Made by a program: the position numbers and the translations under genes. From positions 1-43,834 of the forward strand of contig JAJZAV010000003.1 in the NCBI GenBank assembly GCA_021799255.1: a stretch of DNA of 43,834 bases, written 5' to 3'. The notes below the pieces were generated by a model that saw only the letters and a program-made list of their open reading frames with translations, searched no databases and had not been told where the DNA came from. This document shows positions 32,772 to 42,452 of this stretch, piece by piece. The stretch is from Bacillota bacterium (GTDB lineage: Bacteria > Bacillota > Bacilli > Alicyclobacillales > Alicyclobacillaceae). The first letter of the stretch is position 1; the number at the start of each line of letters is the position of its first letter.

Positions 32772-33638
32772 CTACTCTCTCAAGTAGGGTAGAACACGAT
32801 TCATAAGATTTTGCAGATCCTTGGCCATTTCACCGTAGGACGTCTTGGCGTCGGGGTTGTCTGTCTGCAGTGCGAAGAGTTCCATGTCCGCTTGCAACTT
32901 CTTCAGGCTAGCCGCTAGCAGAGCGCGTTTTTTCGTCTCTGGCGCCTTAAGAGAGTCGTAGTACAAATCCACATATAGATTCCCATTGGAGTCCACTTGA
33001 GCGAGAAACACATCATCGGTGCTCTTCGCCCCCTGTTTTAATACCTCACCCAACAACCATTCGCGAGAATAGCCGAGATACTGCAACGATTTCTCCATCA
33101 CATTGCCGTCAATGATCAGAATGCGAGGCTCATGCTCGGACAAGACCGGCAACTGAACGTCTTTAGGGGTGAGGGGTTGTAATTCTGTTTTCTTGAGAAC
33201 GCTAAGTTTTCCATTGTTCTCAAAAACAGCGTACTCCGCATCGGAGATTTTAAAGACATCCTTTTGGCGGAGCAGCATCAGAAGTTCCTCCGTGGACATG
33301 TGAACCCGTGATAGGTTTTTCTCCAATATCTGCCCATTTTCCATGAGAATGACCGCACGCCCATCCAATAACGTGCGCGCTTTATAAGACTTCTTCTGGA
33401 GGAGAGCGAGCACCACCGACAATAGAGACCATATCGCTAATGATAAAACGGCGTGCAGATTCTTGATTTCATCTAAGGACCATGCCGCAGCGATGTTTCC
33501 AATCGTGAGCCCCACGATGTAGTCGAAGAAGGTTAGTTGGGCGATTTGTCGTTTTCCTAAAATGCGCGCCAAAATGAATAGGGCGATGAATGCGATAAAT
33601 GACTGGTAGATCACCTCGAAAGTCGTCGGTTCCTGCAT
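32772..33638 (-). CDS. DUF421/YetF-family membrane protein
   Basis: LGKRQIAQLTFFDYIVGLTIGNIAAAWSLD and C-terminal YetF-like domain. Confidence 0.9.
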   Translation of the reverse strand: MQEPTTFEVIYQSFIAFIALFILARILGKRQIAQLTFFDYIVGLTIGNIAAAWSLDEIKNLHAVLSLAIWSLLSVVLALLQKKSYKARTLLDGRAVILMENGQILEKNLSRVHMSTEELLMLLRQKDVFKISDAEYAVFENNGKLSVLKKTELQPLTPKDVQLPVLSEHEPRILIIDGNVMEKSLQYLGYSREWLLGEVLKQGAKSTDDVFLAQVDSNGNLYVDLYYDSLKAPETKKRALLAASLKKLQADMELFALQTDNPDAKTSYGEMAKDLQNLMNRVLPYLRE

Positions 33639-33874
33639 GCCATGTTCCCTTCACGGTTCATGTTTAACTCCGTACACTACTCTTCCACGACGGTCTCTAT
33701 CGCATACACCAGCCCCGGCCCGACGTCCCGAAGGATCACCGCTACCGACGAACGCTCTCCAATCGGTTAGCGGGCACAACGTCGCAGAGTGGGGCGTACC
33801 CGGGCTGCCCGCTTAGGCAAGTACCGAGTCAGTTTCGGAACTGCAAAAATACAATGTCGATAAACAAACGAGTG

Positions 33875-33947
33875 GGTGATGGAGCTCACCTGAATGTCCG
33901 TTAGGATAATGGCTCCTGCGATTCTCCAAGATCGCAGGAGCCATTAT
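33875..33947 (+). ncRNA. Fluoride riboswitch (crcB motif) #1 with overlapping terminator
   Basis: GGTGATGGAGCTCACC ... ATAATGGCTCCTGCG; GGAG/CTCC pseudoknot; 17-bp perfect terminator arms ATAATGGCTCCTGCGAT (33906-33922)/ATCGCAGGAGCCATTAT (33931-33947) then U-rich. Confidence 0.86.
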
Positions 33948-33974
33948 CTCTTTATTCAATCAAGAAAATTCGAG

Positions 33975-34003
33975 TTGACAATGGGCGATGACTTCTTTAC
34001 GAT
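33975..34003 (+). promoter_or_regulatory. Candidate sigma-A promoter between riboswitch #1 and #2
   Basis: TTGACA (33975-33980), 17-nt spacer, TACGAT (33998-34003). Confidence 0.5.
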
Positions 34004-34019
34004 GAGGGTAACTGAAATG

Positions 34020-34090
34020 GGCGATGGAGTTCGCCGGAACTGCTTTCGAGCTGATGACTCCTACCAGTGATGACTGGTGGGAGTTTTGTT
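34020..34090 (+). ncRNA. Fluoride riboswitch (crcB motif) #2 with overlapping terminator
   Basis: GGCGATGGAGTTCGCCGGAACTGCTTTCGAGCTGATGACTCCTACC; terminator arms ACTCCTACCAGT/ACTGGTGGGAGT then TTTTGTTTTT. Confidence 0.92.
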
Positions 34091-34111
34091 TTTATGCGAG
34101 AGTCCCCAACA

Positions 34112-34197
34112 GGCGATGGAGCTCGCCGACAACTGCCTTTTTTCCCAAGGCTGATGGCTCCTACCGATTCGGTCCAAGAATCGGTAGGAGCTTTTTT
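34112..34197 (+). ncRNA. Fluoride riboswitch (crcB motif) #3 with overlapping terminator
   Basis: GGCGATGGAGCTCGCCGACAACTGCC...GGCTGATGGCTCCTACC; terminator arms GCTCCTACCGATTC/GAATCGGTAGGAGC then TTTTTT. Confidence 0.95.
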
Positions 34198-34223
34198 GCT
34201 TCTTCGTAAGGAGGCGGAAACCG

Positions 34224-35174
34224 ATGAGTGAAGCAAGATTGTTCTCTCTACAATTGCTTCAACTGGGCTTTGTTCTTGTGGTCTCCCCCCTCATTGCAGG
34301 CGTCCTCGCTCGGATGAAGGAGTTCGTTCAAGGCAAGGCAGGGCCAAGCATTTTTCAGCCCTACCGGGATCTTCGCAAGCTGTTCCAGAAAGAGCGGCTG
34401 ATTCCCGAGGGTTCTGGGCCCGTGTATCGCCTTGCTCCTTACCTGTATTTTTCAGCACCGCTCATCGTCACGCTGCTCATCCCGGTGCTCACGACGTTTC
34501 CCCTGTTTATGGCGTTTGCTGGAGACATGATGGCGGGCGGATTCATCCTTGGACTCGGAACGTACGTATTGCTCGCAGGGGCCATGGCAGGAGCTAGCCC
34601 GTACGGCGCCATCGGCAGCAGCCGCGTTCGATTTGTCTCCATGTCCGTCGAACCAGTACTCATTCTTGTCCTGTTTTGCGTGAGCTTCGTGGCGCACACC
34701 ACGATTCCGTACATCGTCAATCAAACCCTCTGGGGCCTTCGATGGTCCCCTATTCACCTGCTTTTGATTGCCTCGTTCTTCGCCATTCTATTGGCCGAGA
34801 CGGGACGCATCCCGGTAGATAATCCTTCGTCTCACCACGAATTTTCTATGATTGATCACAATCGTGTGTACGACTATTCCGGACCCGATTTAGCTCTACT
34901 CGAGTGGGGCGGGTGGATGAAGTACGTCGCCCTCGGGACCATCTTTTTGAACGTTATCGTTTCCCCCTACGGCTTGTCCCACAGCCCGGGCCTCATTTGG
35001 GTAGCCCTGGCCATCGTGGCGGTGTTCGTGAAGTTTGTACTGCTAGACGCCGCCATCGTTTGGGTGGAGTCGTCCTTCGGAAAACTGCGCCTGCTGCGGA
35101 TAGCAGAGTTTATGGCTTCGGCGGGCATGGCGGCCGGATTGGCCGTTCTCTTGGGAATTTTGCACGCTTGGTGA
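34224..35174 (+). CDS. Hyf/Hyc-type membrane subunit, NuoH-like (HyfC/HycD)
   Basis: GPSIFQPYRDLRKLFQKE, AETGRIPVDNPSSHHEFSMIDHNRVYDYSGPDLALLEWGGWMKY; AAGGAGG RBS. Confidence 0.92.
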   Translation: MSEARLFSLQLLQLGFVLVVSPLIAGVLARMKEFVQGKAGPSIFQPYRDLRKLFQKERLIPEGSGPVYRLAPYLYFSAPLIVTLLIPVLTTFPLFMAFAGDMMAGGFILGLGTYVLLAGAMAGASPYGAIGSSRVRFVSMSVEPVLILVLFCVSFVAHTTIPYIVNQTLWGLRWSPIHLLLIASFFAILLAETGRIPVDNPSSHHEFSMIDHNRVYDYSGPDLALLEWGGWMKYVALGTIFLNVIVSPYGLSHSPGLIWVALAIVAVFVKFVLLDAAIVWVESSFGKLRLLRIAEFMASAGMAAGLAVLLGILHAW

Positions 35175-35231
35175 AGGCTTTCGGCTAACGCCTTGCCACG
35201 TTCGAATTCGTCGAAGAGGGAGGAACTGTCC

Positions 35232-35867
35232 ATGTGGGCTGAATCGCCTACCGTCTATGTTCTCGTTTTGTTGCTTGGCATCTGGATTGCCATGTCGCGA
35301 GAAACCCGAATTGCGGTGAATGGCTATGTCCTTCAAACGGCGTTGGTAGCCCTTTTGTACGGACTCACCGCGTTCCAAACCAGGGACTCGATGGAATATG
35401 TGGTTCTATTCGGGCTTGTCGTGCTTCGCCTTGGCCTCATCCCATGGCTATTACGTCGTTTTCTTCGAGGCGAACTTTATACAGCCCGACAAACCCGCGA
35501 GGTCTTTTCCCCGGCGTACGCCTTAGCGTTGCATATCATCCTTGCCGTCGTCGGCATTGCAGTCGGACAGAGCGCGCAACCGGGAACGCTCGGACTGGAT
35601 TTCGGAATGACCATCGCGGTTCTCCTCGTCGGTTTGGCGACCGTGACCATCGCGCATCATGCTCCCAAGCAGGTCATGGGAATCTTGGCTGCGGATAACG
35701 GGATCGATCTCGCTGTCGTCCTCACCTTGCGCCGCTTCACCGCGGTCGCGGACTACGCCATCTTTGTCGACGTCACGGTGGCGGCGCTTTGTCTCACCCT
35801 GATGGTGCTTCGACTCTTCGCGTACGGTTCTCAGCACGCCCATCATTTCAACGACCTGAAGGGGTGA
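35232..35867 (+). CDS. Hyf-type membrane subunit, HyfE/NuoK-like
   Basis: About 211 aa polytopic protein, position and length as HyfE; ATG at 35232 after GAGGGAGGAA. Confidence 0.85.
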   Translation: MWAESPTVYVLVLLLGIWIAMSRETRIAVNGYVLQTALVALLYGLTAFQTRDSMEYVVLFGLVVLRLGLIPWLLRRFLRGELYTARQTREVFSPAYALALHIILAVVGIAVGQSAQPGTLGLDFGMTIAVLLVGLATVTIAHHAPKQVMGILAADNGIDLAVVLTLRRFTAVADYAIFVDVTVAALCLTLMVLRLFAYGSQHAHHFNDLKG

Positions 35868-35874
35868 TTGGTGC

Positions 35875-37314
35875 ATGTGGACTTATATTTTGCTTTGCAT
35901 TCCTCTCGTTGGAATCTTGGTCACTTGGCTGAGTTCTGCGTCCATCCGTCGGTGGGTGCCGGTTGTGACGACAGGGCTGAACCTCGTCGTTGCCGCATTT
36001 GACGGGTTCTTGCCCAAGAGTTCTGTCCCTTTCAGAGGCGTGTTCCCCCATCTCGACACGCTCTCGCTGGTGGTCACGGGCATTACCCTCGTGGTCGGTT
36101 TCACGGCCGCTCTGTATTCCGCAGGCTACGTGCCGAGGGACCACCCGTCCGTGCCTGGAACGCAACCTGCTTCCGAACGCAGATATTTCAGTCTGTTTTT
36201 GGCATTCTACCTGACCATGTTGGCCGCTCCACTCGTGGAAAACGTCGTCCTCACGTGGGTGATGGTGGACGCCACCGCACTCGCCTCGGTGTTTCTGGTG
36301 GACTTCCACCATACAAGGAAGACGGCGGAGGCCTCATGGAAATACATCATCATCATGGAAGTCGGAGGGCTGGCCGCCCTGTTTGGAACCGTCGTTCTCT
36401 TGCTCGGCGAACCCGCGGCCCTTCACGATTTGACGTGGACGGGTCTCACGCACGTCGCGTCCACCATTTCACCGAAATTGTCGTCCATCGCCTTCGTGCT
36501 CGTTCTCGTCGGATATGGCACCAAGGCGGGGCTCGTGCCTTTTAACTCGTGGTTGCCTGACGCACACAGCCAGGCACCCTCGCCAGTTAGCGCCATGCTG
36601 AGCGCCATCAAACTCAATACCGCGATGTATGCCATCGTGCGCGTATTGCACATTTTGCAAGCGGGTCACGAAGGAGCATTTGCCAACCACGCGCTTGCGG
36701 TGTTCGGGTTTCTCACAGTCATCGTGAGCACGTTGATGACGACCGTGCAGCGCGATGTGAAACGGTTGTTGGCGTATTCGAGTTCCGAGAACCTGGGCCT
36801 CATTGCCGTAGGGTTCTCACTTGGCCCCATCGGCGCTCTCGGAGCCTACTTGCAAATGGTGAACCACTCGGTGGTCAAGTCGATGCTTTTCTACCAGTCG
36901 GGCGAGCTTCTGCTGGCATCCGGAACCACGGAGATGGCCCAAATGCGGGGCATGATCCGCCGGATCCCCTGGCTCGGAGTCACGCTCTTGTTCGGAATGC
37001 TCGCCATTGCGGGTGCACCGCCCTTCGGGCTCTTCATCAGCGAGTTCACCATCATCTTCGCGTTGGTGCACGAAGCTTCTCCGTGGCTCGCGGCCCTCAT
37101 CACCCTGATGCTCGTTATCCTGTTTGCCAATTTTCTCACGTACGCCATGAGGATCAGCCTTGGCACGCCTTCCCATCCGCTCGCTACGGACGGCAGCAAC
37201 TATCGCCCGAGGTGGACGACGTGGGTGCCGATGTTCAGTCACACTGGGGTGTCATTGGCGCTTGGCACCGTTTTACCTTACCTGTTGGTTCTTTCCCGAT
37301 TTGTGCGAATCTGA
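35875..37314 (+). CDS. Proton-translocating antiporter-like subunit, HyfF/NuoN-M-like
   Basis: YGTKAGLVPFNSWLPDAHSQAPSPVSAMLSAIKLNTAMYAIVR, DVKRLLAYSSSENLGLIAVG. Confidence 0.93.
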   Translation: MWTYILLCIPLVGILVTWLSSASIRRWVPVVTTGLNLVVAAFDGFLPKSSVPFRGVFPHLDTLSLVVTGITLVVGFTAALYSAGYVPRDHPSVPGTQPASERRYFSLFLAFYLTMLAAPLVENVVLTWVMVDATALASVFLVDFHHTRKTAEASWKYIIIMEVGGLAALFGTVVLLLGEPAALHDLTWTGLTHVASTISPKLSSIAFVLVLVGYGTKAGLVPFNSWLPDAHSQAPSPVSAMLSAIKLNTAMYAIVRVLHILQAGHEGAFANHALAVFGFLTVIVSTLMTTVQRDVKRLLAYSSSENLGLIAVGFSLGPIGALGAYLQMVNHSVVKSMLFYQSGELLLASGTTEMAQMRGMIRRIPWLGVTLLFGMLAIAGAPPFGLFISEFTIIFALVHEASPWLAALITLMLVILFANFLTYAMRISLGTPSHPLATDGSNYRPRWTTWVPMFSHTGVSLALGTVLPYLLVLSRFVRI

Positions 37315-37332
37315 TGGAATGGGGGGTCTCCA

Positions 37333-38841
37333 TTGAAAGTACTGACCGCGCAAGGTTCGAATCTAAAACACGTCGAACGGCAACACCATCGCATCGGTGA
37401 TCTCGTGCACGCCGTGGTTCATTTCGCATCAGAAGAATCGGCGCAATTACTTTACTTCGGGTGGATCCCCAAAACGGGTGGATGGTCTAGACTCCTGGCC
37501 GTGATTGGTCGCCCGAAACACGCGCTGATTGAGTGGCACCACGCGGCCCCAACGTTCGGCCAAACAGCGTACCCCTCGCTCTCCGCGCGTTGGCCCGCGG
37601 CTTTGTGGTTAGAACGCGAAATGTGGGAGTTGACGAAGGTACTCCCGGTGGGCCATCCGGACCTGCGGGCCATTCTGCATCCCGAGAATCAAGAAGAGCG
37701 GATTGTGGTGCATGGAGACGAGGTTTTTCAATTGCCTCTAGGCCCTGTGCGATCCGATGTCGTCGAATCGATGTTCATGCGATTTGACACGCAGGGCGAG
37801 CAAATCGTGCACATGCAGCCTGAACTCTTTTACAAGCACCGGGACATCGAACGACTCGCGGTTGGACTCCTATATCCGGACGGGCGATTCCTGGCGGAGC
37901 GCGTTGCTGGGACTTCCACGATTGCCCACGCGACGGCCTACGCTCGCGCCATAGAGCATGCCTTAGGACATGTCGTTCACCCCAAGGTGGAGCAGGAACG
38001 CATCGTGTTTGGGGAATTGGAACGTCTCTACAATCATGCGCACGACATGGCCCAGATGGCGAGCGCCGCCGGAATGACCGTAGCGCAGGCGCAACTCTCC
38101 CGCGTTAAGGAGGAGTGCCTGCGCGTGAACGGCGATCTCTGCGGGTCTCGGTATCTGCGCAACGCAGTGCTTCCATACAAGGGGTCGGACGTCGAATGGG
38201 CGCAAGTCGTGTCCACCGTCATACGGAGGCTGCGAGACATTAATGGAAGGTTTACACAGTGCCTGGACCTGTTGCGAAGAACGCCGACGTTTGTGGACCG
38301 ATTCGTGGGGGCGGGCATCGTGAAGCAAGAATGGGCACGCGCCTACGGGACGGTAGGACCCGTTGCTCGCGCTTGTGGGCAGCCCGTCGACGTGCGGGAG
38401 GATTATTTGCGGGATCGGTACGAACAGCAGGCGTATCGTGTGGTTGTCGACGAAGCGGGCACCGGTGACGGGTGGGCCCGATTTGTCGTACGCGCGGGGG
38501 AATGGGAAATATCGCAGAGGGTTCTTACCAAGGGTCTCCAACTGCTCGCGAACGGGGACTTCATGGAGGCGGGCAGTTTGGCAGGAACTCAAGATGACTC
38601 CAAGAACGACGGTTTCTCGCTTGAACGCACCGGCATCGGTCTTTCTGAATCTCCGCGAGGTCGCGTGTGCCACGTGGTTCAATTGGATCCGGATGGACGG
38701 CTGGCCTTTTGGGGAATCCGGGCCGCGTCGGCGTGGAACTGGCCTGTGTTGGGCCTTGCGGTTGCGAACGGCAACATCCAACAGGATTTCCCGCCCATTG
38801 AGGCGAGCTTTGGATTGTCCTGCGCAGGCGTGGATAGGTAA
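37333..38841 (+). CDS. HyfG/HycE-like large subunit (NuoCD fusion) lacking most [NiFe] ligands
   Basis: FYKHRDIERLAVG...AERVAGTSTIAHATAYARAIEHALG aligns by eye with the HycE L1 region; C-terminus EASFGLSCAGVDR in place of DPCxxC. Confidence 0.85.
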   Translation: MKVLTAQGSNLKHVERQHHRIGDLVHAVVHFASEESAQLLYFGWIPKTGGWSRLLAVIGRPKHALIEWHHAAPTFGQTAYPSLSARWPAALWLEREMWELTKVLPVGHPDLRAILHPENQEERIVVHGDEVFQLPLGPVRSDVVESMFMRFDTQGEQIVHMQPELFYKHRDIERLAVGLLYPDGRFLAERVAGTSTIAHATAYARAIEHALGHVVHPKVEQERIVFGELERLYNHAHDMAQMASAAGMTVAQAQLSRVKEECLRVNGDLCGSRYLRNAVLPYKGSDVEWAQVVSTVIRRLRDINGRFTQCLDLLRRTPTFVDRFVGAGIVKQEWARAYGTVGPVARACGQPVDVREDYLRDRYEQQAYRVVVDEAGTGDGWARFVVRAGEWEISQRVLTKGLQLLANGDFMEAGSLAGTQDDSKNDGFSLERTGIGLSESPRGRVCHVVQLDPDGRLAFWGIRAASAWNWPVLGLAVANGNIQQDFPPIEASFGLSCAGVDR

Positions 38842-38853
38842 GGAGGGAAGGAC

Positions 38854-39252
38854 ATGTTCGCTAGCTGGCTGCGATTCGGGCTCACAAGTGGTCGCGTGAC
38901 GACGAGCTATCCAAAGAATAGGGAGGTTCTGCTGAGGGAGCACTCATCCTGGCATACGGTGCCGCGCCTCGACGCAACGGCAGCGCGCAAGCCGACGCCA
39001 ACCCTCCAAGATGTGAAAGCATGGGCGATGCGGTGTCCAACCTCGGCGCTGTTCGTATGGAGCGACGAGTCGGGATGGGGAATCTCTCTTGATGAGGGCG
39101 CGTGCATCGGCTGCAATCGCTGCGTGGTGCCGAACGTGCAGAGGGTGACGGAGTGGGGAGCAGACGTGGATCTCTTTGCCCTGGATAGGCTTGCACTCGT
39201 GGACAGCGTTCGGCTACAAGGAGGGGACTTTCGCGATGGACAACAAAAGTGA
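38854..39252 (+). CDS. Reduced HyfH/NuoI-like ferredoxin subunit
   Basis: MRCPTSAL...GACIGCNRCV; exactly four cysteines; position between large and small subunit genes. Confidence 0.75.
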   Translation: MFASWLRFGLTSGRVTTSYPKNREVLLREHSSWHTVPRLDATAARKPTPTLQDVKAWAMRCPTSALFVWSDESGWGISLDEGACIGCNRCVVPNVQRVTEWGADVDLFALDRLALVDSVRLQGGDFRDGQQK

Positions 39253-39718
39253 CTGGAACGAGTTGGACGCCGAGAAGCAGGCGGCTTCCCGGTTACGTAG
39301 AATCTTCGGAAAGTCCCTCCATGTGCGGCACATCGACGTGGGCTCCTGCAATGCATGTGAATCTGAGGTTTTGGCGTTGTCCAACCCGTACTACAACTTT
39401 CACCGCCTTGGCCTGTTCTTTACGGCTTCGCCTCGGCAGGCGGATGTGTTGCTTGTGACGGGGGCGATGACGCCCACCATGAAACCCATCCTTATGGAAA
39501 CGTACGAGGCGATGCCCAAGCCCCGATTGGTCGTTGCCGCGGGGGTATGCGCCATCCACGGAGGGGTGTTTGCCAACAGCCGGCAATTCGCCGGCCCCGT
39601 GGAATCCGTAATTCCAGTCGACGCGTTCATCCCAGGGTGCCCTCCGACTCCGTACGCGTTGATAAACGGTATCCTTGCGGCCGTAAATGGGCGCGAAGGA
39701 GTGACGCGAGATGCGTGA
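39236..39718 (+). CDS. HyfI/HycG/NuoB-like small subunit
   Basis: DVGSCNACESEVLAL, VVAAGVCAIHGGVF, FIPGCPPTPYALING; ATG at 39236 with AAGGAGGGG RBS. Confidence 0.93.
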   Translation: MDNKSDWNELDAEKQAASRLRRIFGKSLHVRHIDVGSCNACESEVLALSNPYYNFHRLGLFFTASPRQADVLLVTGAMTPTMKPILMETYEAMPKPRLVVAAGVCAIHGGVFANSRQFAGPVESVIPVDAFIPGCPPTPYALINGILAAVNGREGVTRDA

Positions 39719-41816
39719 CTTTTATTGGATCTCGGTTGCCTGGTTCTTGATCCCGCTCGCTTTGTTTCCGTGGTTCCGCCGAGAACGGGCCCTTCGGCCC
39801 CTTCGCTGGGCGGCTCTCGCCATCGGATCTCTTCTTCAAACGGCGCTGGGAATATGGGCACTTTCAGATTCCTCCCGCCTCGTTGTCGCCAAGTTCCCCA
39901 GCGTCCCGTTCTTCGGAACTTGGCTGTTTCGGATGGATCCTTTGACGTCGCTCTTGTTTGCTCTGCTCGGACTTATCGGCCTCGCGTCTAGCATTTATGC
40001 GATTGGATTGAGTCGGAACCGAGCGCTCGGCACCGGATGGATGAGCGCAAGTGCCGTGGCGCTGCAGTTCATGTTCACCAGTTTCTTGCTCACTTCGCAA
40101 GACGCCGTTGCACTCTTAGTGGCGTGGGAAGGCATGAGCCTTTGTGCCTACGCCTTTGTGGCAATCAATCACGGGTTGATACGCGTGAGGCGGGCCGCGT
40201 TCACGACGCTCGTGGCGAGTGAGATTGGCTTTCTGGCACTCGTGATTGCCGTCGTCATGGCGGCACCGGTGAGCGGAGGATTCACGTTTGCACAGCTCCA
40301 CGCCTCGCTCGTCCATCATCCCGAATCGTTGCGCTGTGTCGTGCTAGTGCTGGGCCTCGTCGGCTTCGGGGTGAAAAGCGGCATTTTGCCGATGCAGATG
40401 TGGATGCCCGGAGCGTACGACGCGGCGCCAGCTCACATGAGTGCCATTCTCGCGGGTGGGCTTCTCAACCTAGGGATATTCGGTATCCTCCGGACCCTCG
40501 AATGGGTCGGCGCACTTCCTTCACCCTGGGGCGTTGCGCTGGTGTGTGTGGGGGCGTTGGCCGTGTTTTTGGGGTCGCTGTACGCGGTGATGGAGCGACG
40601 GCTTGGCCGGTTGCTCGCTTACAGCAGCATCGAGAACGTTGGGTTTATGATCATCGGCATAGGCCTATCCATCGCCTTTCGTGCCACTGGGGCGGCAGCT
40701 TTTGCCTCGGTGGCGCTCATGGCCATGTTGGCGCAAATGATCTCCCACGCACTGGCCAAGGCGCTTTGCTTCTTGGCAACGGGTGAGGTTGAACGCCGCA
40801 CAAAGAAGGCGGATCTCTCCGCTTTGGGAGGGTTGTACCGAGACATGCCCGTGGCCGCGATCACGCTGTTGGTGGGTTCCTTAACCTTGGCCGCGGTTGC
40901 CCCGTTCAGTGGATTTACGGCCGAATGGTTGACCCTTCAGTCCATGCTGCAGGTCTACCGCACCCTGACGCCCGTTGAGCAGATGGTCGTGATTGGCGCG
41001 GGCGCTCTGACGGCCATCGGATCTGCGCTAGCTTTCACCGCCTTCCTTCGATTGTTCGTGTTTCTATTCACGGGGAAGCCCCGCAGGGCAGCGGTGACAT
41101 TGCGGGTGCGCCAGAATACGAGCGGCAAGCTCACAAACCTCGCCATCATAGGCCTGGGAAGTGTGTCCGCGCTGTACGGATTTGTGCCGACCGCCGTCTT
41201 CAACTGGATTGGCAAGGTCGTTGCGGAGATAGTGCCATCGACAAATGCAATTTCACAAACCAACCCGGATGTGTTTGGCCGTCCCGCGGCATTTTCGTCG
41301 ACGGTCGCCCTGGGAGGGGACCTGTTTTCTTTTGCGCCCGTGCGCAGTTTCATCGTTCAACCCGCCGCAGGAGTGAGCAGCATCGCTCCGACATACCTCA
41401 TGGGGTGGTTTCTCCTGTTCTCAGTTCTCGCCTTCGGACTGAGCAAGGGACTTCGGCGCAGCCGTTTCGGGTCTCGAACCGTCCCCTCGTGGGTGGGCGG
41501 GCGCTCCCTGGATGTTTCGGAGACCCAGTACAATGCACCTGGATACTCGAATGTTTACCGAATGTTTTTCCGTTCATTGCTCCGCTTTCGCGTCAGCACC
41601 GCGGTGATGGAAGGGGCGCCCGATGTGCCCACGGAGGTGTCTGTAAACGTGCGAGCAACCAAATGGCTGTACAGCGCAATTTACCGCAGCTGGGTCAAGA
41701 GGGTGCGCAAGCGCCTGGACGGGGTTCGGCACATCCAACACGGGTTGCTGTGGGGGTATTTGTCCGCCATGGTCCTCACGCTCGTCCTTTTACTGCTCTT
41801 TGCGACGTGGAAATGA
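39711..41816 (+). CDS. Antiporter-like membrane subunit, HyfB/HycC/NuoL-like
   Basis: LVAWEGMSLCAYAFVA, GFGVKSGILPMQMWMPGAYDAAPAHMSAILAGGLLNLGI, RRLGRLLAYSSIENVGFMIIGIG. Confidence 0.94.
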   Translation: MRDFYWISVAWFLIPLALFPWFRRERALRPLRWAALAIGSLLQTALGIWALSDSSRLVVAKFPSVPFFGTWLFRMDPLTSLLFALLGLIGLASSIYAIGLSRNRALGTGWMSASAVALQFMFTSFLLTSQDAVALLVAWEGMSLCAYAFVAINHGLIRVRRAAFTTLVASEIGFLALVIAVVMAAPVSGGFTFAQLHASLVHHPESLRCVVLVLGLVGFGVKSGILPMQMWMPGAYDAAPAHMSAILAGGLLNLGIFGILRTLEWVGALPSPWGVALVCVGALAVFLGSLYAVMERRLGRLLAYSSIENVGFMIIGIGLSIAFRATGAAAFASVALMAMLAQMISHALAKALCFLATGEVERRTKKADLSALGGLYRDMPVAAITLLVGSLTLAAVAPFSGFTAEWLTLQSMLQVYRTLTPVEQMVVIGAGALTAIGSALAFTAFLRLFVFLFTGKPRRAAVTLRVRQNTSGKLTNLAIIGLGSVSALYGFVPTAVFNWIGKVVAEIVPSTNAISQTNPDVFGRPAAFSSTVALGGDLFSFAPVRSFIVQPAAGVSSIAPTYLMGWFLLFSVLAFGLSKGLRRSRFGSRTVPSWVGGRSLDVSETQYNAPGYSNVYRMFFRSLLRFRVSTAVMEGAPDVPTEVSVNVRATKWLYSAIYRSWVKRVRKRLDGVRHIQHGLLWGYLSAMVLTLVLLLLFATWK

Positions 41817-41870: not shown

Positions 41871-42269
41871 TCATTGTCCCAGTTCTTCGTTCGTATTCCA
41901 AATCCGGCCGCTGACGGTGGACACAAGGAGATCCCCCACGTACGCGAGGACGGGTCCCCCAATCATACTCGCTGCTATGTATAAATAGCTCGCCAACGGA
42001 CTATGCCGAAATAACGTGTCGGTGTTGAGGCAGAATGTCGAGAACGTCGTGTAGGCCCCAATAAGGCCGACCCCAAAGCCTACACGAAGCCAGTCAGGAA
42101 TGTCGCGGAAGGCAGCAATCCCATAGAACACTCCGAGGACGAAAGATCCGCTTAAATTGATCAGCAACGTAGCGTTTGGGAACGCTCCATCGGCTGGGAT
42201 GATATGCGCTAGTAAATATCGGAGAAAGCCGCCGATGGCCCCCCCAATGAGAAGCGCAACGTATTTCAT
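41871..42269 (-). CDS. crcB: Fluoride exporter CrcB/FluC
   Basis: MKYVALLIGGAIGGFLRYLLAHI, FPNATLLINLSGSFVLGVFYG, RVGFGVGLIGAYTTFSTFCLNT; start at 42269 with AAGGAAGGA RBS (ORF track start is further upstream). Confidence 0.95.
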   Translation of the reverse strand: MKYVALLIGGAIGGFLRYLLAHIIPADGAFPNATLLINLSGSFVLGVFYGIAAFRDIPDWLRVGFGVGLIGAYTTFSTFCLNTDTLFRHSPLASYLYIAASMIGGPVLAYVGDLLVSTVSGRIWNTNEELGQ

Positions 42270-42356: not shown

Positions 42357-42433
42357 CTCCTGTGACAATGACTAGATACGTCTCTCACAGGAGCCATCAA
42401 CCTCTTAGGTGGTTATCGGTGAGATCCATCACC
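42357..42433 (-). ncRNA. Fluoride riboswitch (crcB motif) #4 with terminator, upstream of crcB
   Basis: Minus strand GGTGATGGATCTCACCGATAACCACCTAAGAGGTTGATGGCTCCTGTGA; terminator arms CTCCTGTGA/TCACAGGAG then TTTTATTG. Confidence 0.92.
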
Positions 42434-42452
42434 CGTGTTTCTCAATGTGGGC

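Follow-up and report, generated by a model that had tools for sequence, protein, structure and literature searches.

A fluoride-riboswitch-linked clade of hydrogenase-derived Ehr complexes, found through a seven-gene operon of an Alicyclobacillaceae bacterium

A hydrogenase-like membrane complex without a hydrogenase active site appears to have come under the control of fluoride riboswitches. The window analysed here, 43,834 nucleotides of contig JAJZAV010000003.1 from a Bacillota bacterium of the family Alicyclobacillaceae (assembly GCA_021799255.1), contains a seven-gene operon at positions 34224-41816, in the order NuoH-, HyfE-, HyfF-, NuoCD-, ferredoxin-, NuoB- and NuoL-like. Open reading frames, Pfam and NCBIfam bear out this order and these coordinates, which an initial annotation had given for a fluoride-controlled Hyf/complex-I-like complex. 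By its residues and gene content, the complex is of the hydrogenase-derived type known as hydrogenase-related (Ehr), not a formate hydrogenlyase or hydrogenase, and its large-subunit signature, gene order and riboswitch mark a separate Ehr clade, new here. What would such a machine do under fluoride control? Our preferred answer, held with slightly better than even confidence, is that it is a fluoride-induced pump for cations (H+ or Na+) that acts as the partner of the fluoride channel FluC; its regulation can be read from the anatomy of the locus, and pumping and coupling to FluC are what we infer.

The control region holds three complete switches in tandem. All four matches to the fluoride riboswitch covariance model RF01734 in the window (33866-33925, 34011-34070 and 34103-34170 on the forward strand, 42381-42442 on the reverse strand; E = 1e-6 to 3e-13) score above the gathering score (36.6-56.9 bits against 34). 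Three aptamers thus precede the operon and fluC has its own on the opposite strand, so the earlier wording, a fluoride riboswitch array convergent with fluC, was correct. The elements upstream of the operon are as follows.

33866-33925, forward strand: fluoride riboswitch aptamer 1 (RF01734, 36.6 bits, E 1.2e-6)
33904-33949, forward strand: terminator hairpin 1, 20 pairs, 5' arm within aptamer 1 (-35.3 kcal/mol, z -9.3)
33975-34003, forward strand: promoter-like TTGACA-17-TACGAT directly 5' of aptamer 2 (from a consensus scan alone, in which the number of such sites is not above that in shuffles)
34011-34070, forward strand: fluoride riboswitch aptamer 2 (RF01734, 56.9 bits)
34056-34085, forward strand: terminator hairpin 2, 13 pairs, 5' arm within aptamer 2 (folding z -6.5)
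34103-34170, forward strand: fluoride riboswitch aptamer 3 (RF01734, 56.8 bits)
34156-34192, forward strand: terminator hairpin 3, 15 pairs, 5' arm within aptamer 3 (folding z -7.0)
34208-34214, forward strand: ribosome-binding site AAGGAGG of the first operon gene (from the sequence)

The 3' part of all three aptamers also forms the 5' side of a strong terminator hairpin; since each overlaps its own terminator, we read each as a switch turned ON by fluoride. The layout, known from ON switches, occurs three times in series, and induction by fluoride is what its anatomy predicts; the repeated overlap, together with wide conservation, strongly supports the fluoride control first proposed for the operon. 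Given the promoter-like site just 5' of aptamer 2, switch 1 may gate a separate promoter upstream. Standard aptamers, terminator-type expression platforms and partners such as fluC, a Na+/H+ exchanger and a pyrophosphatase-type gene are all familiar from the fluoride riboswitch regulon (crcB motif, RF01734), whereas the three tandem complete switches before the operon set it apart. Divergent from the array lies a gene for a DUF421/YetF membrane protein with a DUF1657 tail (32772-33638, reverse strand).

The operon and the convergent fluC read as follows, TM denoting a transmembrane helix and N2 an iron-sulphur cluster.

34224-35174, forward strand: NuoH/HyfC-like membrane subunit (PF00146, NADHdh, 2.2e-32)
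35193-35867, forward strand: HyfE-like membrane subunit (sole match NCBIfam NF008556, 'hydrogenase 4 membrane subunit', 6.4e-7)
35875-37314, forward strand: HyfF-like antiporter subunit (PF00361, Proton_antipo_M, 9e-50; TM5 Asp, TM7 Lys, TM8 Lys and TM12 Glu kept)
37333-38841, forward strand: NuoCD-like large subunit without NiFe ligands (RVAGTST, SFGLSCAG; PF00329 and PF00346, Complex1_30kDa and Complex1_49kDa, in one protein)
38854-39252, forward strand: ferredoxin-like subunit with a single [4Fe-4S] site (CP and CxxCxxC; from alignment, Fer4 matches being below threshold)
39236-39718, forward strand: NuoB/HyfI-like subunit with all four N2-cluster Cys (PF01058, Oxidored_q6, 6e-30; ATG at 39236 a more likely start than TTG at 39176)
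39711-41816, forward strand: NuoL/HyfB-like antiporter subunit, the final operon gene, TM8 basic residue lost (PF00361, 3e-43)
41871-42269, reverse strand: fluC (crcB) fluoride channel, convergent with the operon, likely start ATG 42269 (PF02537, 1.7e-22)
42381-42442, reverse strand: fluC riboswitch aptamer (RF01734, 45.9 bits), overlapping a terminator-like hairpin at 42357-42393 that was read by hand, its loop being too long for the hairpin scan

In the sources that describe them (2013 work cited in PMC10284858; PMC6349859), Ehr complexes join group-4-hydrogenase-like subunits to antiporter-like membrane proteins and lack NiFe ligands, and the window complex has the same make-up. Its large and small subunits are hydrogenase-like without those ligands, two PF00361 antiporter-like subunits carry channel residues, and the large subunit groups with the ISGDE and SGDST Ehr types, not with true hydrogenases (support 92-96, quick trees). 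RVAGTST and SFGLSCAG stand at the places of the RxCGxC and CxxC pairs of NiFe hydrogenases; it is because both [NiFe]-ligand CxxC motifs are gone that we class the complex among the Ehr complexes. Both motifs are missing in 17/17 clade rows of each large-subunit tree, whereas hydrogenase-type paralogues of the same bacterial family (L079-L083) retain CGVC and CYAC and lack a fluoride switch. A genuine formate hydrogenlyase or hydrogenase-4 that disposes of acid as H2, to which the gene families and a published 'formate hydrogen lyase' label would point, was rejected on the loss of these ligands and is extremely improbable; nor is there a formate dehydrogenase gene among the seven genes of the operon, the rest of the genome not having been searched for one. 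Compared with the Hyc and Hyf complexes of E. coli, the operon has homologues of HyfB, C, E, F, G, H and I, but it has neither the NiFe site nor a HyfA/HyfD equivalent, a formate dehydrogenase or a HyfJ/HycI-type gene, and its gene order is different. Among solved structures, that of E. coli HycE (7z0s) is nearest in sequence. The Hyf label thus matched the gene families and was misleading for catalysis. Absence of NiFe maturation was dropped as an argument, since hypD is present elsewhere in the genome. Alicyclobacillaceae also have a third hydrogenase-like paralogue type (L084-L087), in which CGAD replaces the first CxxC and the C-terminal CYSC is kept; one of these (L085) is in the window genome itself, on contig C175.

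Respiratory complex I was likewise considered and rejected. Subunits of the NuoH, NuoCD, NuoB and NuoL/M types and the N2 cluster are shared with it, but the operon lacks the NADH module (NuoEFG) and NuoA/J, and the quinone-site positions are not kept, GPNHPSAHG and RIEYLGG of E. coli NuoCD aligning with GPVRSDVVE and RVAGTST of the window. We take these to be the positions that hold the conserved His and Tyr of the quinone site in the 49 kDa subunit. Elsewhere in the window genome, contig C115 encodes an ordinary large subunit of complex I. These observations bear on a further possibility, a fluoride-tolerant respiratory bypass, in which the complex would serve as an oxidoreductase, of the ferredoxin:quinone or a similar kind, once fluoride has blocked enolase and the normal NADH supply, with pumping secondary. 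The core redox subunits are complex I homologues, and enolase and pyrophosphatase genes flank related operons; the altered quinone positions and the lack of a dehydrogenase module nevertheless make this alternative unlikely. An Mrp antiporter was set aside as well, as only the antiporter-like subunits, and not the full MrpA-G set, are present.

Orthologues with 47-57% identity occur in Alicyclobacillales, including A. mengziensis, A. shizuokensis, strain ALC3 and metagenome-assembled genomes, and more distant members in other Bacillota families (G198, G367, G409), Rhodopila globiformis, Burkholderia multivorans, B. cenocepacia, Caballeronia and Mycobacterium branderi. Those of Burkholderia/Caballeronia and Mycobacterium sit on plasmids, and the acidophile setting in which the operon was first interpreted is therefore not the whole story. 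Quick trees of the large subunit unite the clade with support by the Shimodaira-Hasegawa-like approximate likelihood ratio test (SH-aLRT) of 99 (84 rows) and 100 (49 rows), and it is set apart also in trees of the NuoH-like (support 99) and NuoL-like (98) subunits. The motif GPVR is present in all aligned clade sequences and GPVR(A/S)DV in nearly all, at a position where other group-4-type sequences have GP(V/I/T)HA (GP(V/I)HAGIIE) and HycE/HyfG have GPLH. Conserved residues of the large subunit include Arg140, Asp142, Lys168 and His199. The NuoL-like gene comes last in every complete clade member and first in most relatives; the other Ehr groups sampled mostly have the HyfB-type order and no riboswitch. 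Scanning genome contigs with a single sequence gave nothing, whereas an alignment gave 13 loci; a search at the level of Pseudomonadota classes returned mainly another Ehr type with no fluoride switch nearby, and a sample of the phylum yielded Rhodopila as its sole clade member. In A. mengziensis (L121:12286-16245) the NuoL-like gene is in two pieces about 1.8 kb apart, in an insertion-like arrangement in which a short piece of the coding match is repeated where they join.

How general is the link to fluoride? A survey of genome neighbourhoods, suggested at the outset as a check, finds a fluoride riboswitch upstream of the first gene in 16 of the 19 clade loci with enough upstream sequence and at none of 68 loci outside the clade, although a fluoride riboswitch occurs somewhere in 24 of the 63 genomes searched. 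The linkage is far beyond chance; Fisher's p of 8e-15 is descriptive only, the loci being related and one control (L085) being cut by a contig edge, and the independent support is the recurrence in four or more deep lineages within a single clade. Covariance models were used in place of a regular-expression search that proved too noisy. Three of the 16 linked loci (L124, L138, L139) fall below the Rfam cut-off, and L185 and the weaker L186 were tested solely with an in-house model, R1, whose automatic consensus structure looks wrong and which served as a profile only. The 16 include the ALC3 plasmid, where the switch is instead upstream of a lone large-subunit gene, and in M. branderi a NUDIX gene stands between switch and complex. 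Automatic detection found terminator-type platforms in 13 of 21 checked switches, and most of the other eight show an anti-aptamer arm by eye. Chance proximity or hitch-hiking on islands, with no fluoride role for the operon, would fit the several members found on plasmids or multi-gene islands, but is improbable: in four deep lineages the operon has the riboswitch immediately upstream of it, in most cases together with a terminator of its own, and none of the 68 related loci has one there.

Two of these loci deserve a closer description. At 23-39 kb of the ALC3 plasmid NZ_CP066785.1 (L129/L179) is a fluoride island in which at least five riboswitches exceed the cut-off and which encodes two CrcB-type proteins, DUF190 proteins, two MutS-domain-V proteins, an MFS transporter, a sigma-70 factor and an MntP-type pump; the large-subunit gene has its own switch there, and the other six operon genes are missing. 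On the M. branderi plasmid (L180:2943-3152), two divergent fluoride riboswitches stand back to back, one directed toward universal stress protein and phosphatase genes and the other toward NUDIX and the complex, with enolase at the far end.

A connection of this kind had been mentioned in the initial annotation, and the precedent is real (PMC2864571, PMC11139923). The original description of the crcB motif in 2010 names 'formate hydrogen lyase' (PMC2864571), and a 2024 review counts formate hydrogenlyase among the most common riboswitch-associated enzymes and offers a metabolic explanation (PMC11139923). The enzyme has therefore been listed under fluoride riboswitches since 2010, its role not being shown there. 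Because the riboswitch accompanies 16 of 19 clade loci and no locus outside, the riboswitch-linked 'formate hydrogenlyase' of the literature is probably often this clade, for the whole of which our results suggest that the label is wrong; residues and gene order now allow members to be recognized, and the riboswitch linkage ties the complex to one stress, fluoride, in at least four lineages. We found no paper joining 'fluoride riboswitch' with Ehr complexes in a search that covered few subscription papers, and the sole fluoride-riboswitch paper also mentioning hydrogenase was an E. coli transcriptome under per- and polyfluoroalkyl substances (PFAS).

Why should fluoride call for a pump? Flucs are passive and need an inside-negative membrane potential (PMC11139923). 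The membrane potential of acidophiles is inside-positive (PMC12831704), which would work against passive F- exit. Under our preferred reading, fluoride-bound aptamers would block the three successive terminators and let RNA polymerase enter the operon. HF entering the cell would dissociate, FluC would pass F- out passively and so carry negative charge outward, and the Ehr complex would expel a cation (H+ or Na+), thereby removing the proton and supplying the inside-negative potential that FluC needs; the net outcome would be expulsion of HF, and the need would be sharpest in acidophiles. The window complex, with core complex-I architecture and a short iron-sulphur wire from one ferredoxin cluster to N2, would most likely be driven by electrons passing from a low-potential donor to an acceptor at the remodelled large-subunit pocket. 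The remaining ferredoxin site is presumably the N2-proximal one, by analogy with NuoI.

The company the operon keeps is consistent with such a role. Of the other two fluoride riboswitches of the window genome, one lies directly upstream of a Na+/H+ exchanger gene (L004, on C242), and the other, on C267, precedes a second fluC adjoining a DHH/DHHA2 pyrophosphatase-type gene. Related operons have crcB, inorganic diphosphatase, enolase, universal stress protein, DUF190 and MFS genes as neighbours; riboswitch-linked genes typically include those for fluoride exporters, pyrophosphatase and enolase, and Na+/H+ antiporters form the next most common linked class after exporters (PMC11139923). In S. 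mutans, up-regulation of the proton-pumping F0F1-ATPase raises fluoride tolerance (PMC8841791), an independent precedent for a proton pump aiding fluoride tolerance. The idea of an H+- or Na+-extruding partner of FluC, put forward in the initial annotation, thus fits the retained channel residues, the exchanger and the second fluC, with extrusion itself still a prediction. It also makes a question testable: does F- efflux through passive channels require a dedicated cation pump?

Several observations weigh against this model. The three exceptions among the 19 clade loci, the near-identical metagenome-assembled L123, L125 and L126, show no riboswitch; the large subunit that stands alone under a switch on the ALC3 plasmid is not explained by a pump; the seven operon genes include no dehydrogenase; L138-L140 lack the ferredoxin domain, and M. 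branderi has no N2 Cys. Given the last two losses, electron transfer cannot be the driving force in all clade members. A shared electron-donor gene was sought near the clade loci and not found.

The iron-sulphur wire is indeed uneven among clade members. Two ferredoxin clusters, in a domain fused to NuoB, are present in Burkholderia and Rhodopila and a single one in the window and A. mengziensis, and of the ferredoxin of L138-L140 an N-terminal tail alone is left. The N2 motifs are intact in 15 of 16 aligned clade NuoB sequences, the window included; the sixteenth, that of M. branderi, has lost all four Cys (SNGSDE, GTDA, GAPA), with the operon genes intact and the riboswitch present. The TM5 acidic residue, TM7 Lys and TM12 Glu are retained in nearly all antiporter-like subunits, and the TM8 basic residue of the NuoL-like subunit is lost clade-wide. 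From M. branderi, the fluoride-related work is probably independent of electron transfer through N2 in at least one lineage, and redox-independent transport has to be considered. One rival reading is that the complex is an Mrp-like cation/H+ antiporter or ion leak on an old hydrogenase scaffold, its clusters relics under loss. The Cys replacements in M. branderi, the vanished ferredoxin domain, the single cluster of the window, the largely kept channel residues and the loss of N2 in a non-clade Ehr all favour it, whereas the otherwise intact N2 motifs and the paired clusters of Burkholderia and Rhodopila speak against it; we regard it as possible but doubtful. We entertain just as tentatively a broader proposal, that a complex-I-type machine was captured by the fluoride response as a dedicated fluoride/proton-stress ion transporter, redox-free in some lineages, with wire loss at several stages. 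Either way, the clade is a natural set of cases in which to ask whether ion movement by a machine of the complex I type is possible without electrons. The non-clade Ehr in question is from Allomeiothermus silvanus, whose plasmid pMESIL01 (L183/L188) carries two near-identical Ehr operons in which the N2 Cys of the NuoB-like subunit are lost and near which there is no fluoride switch.

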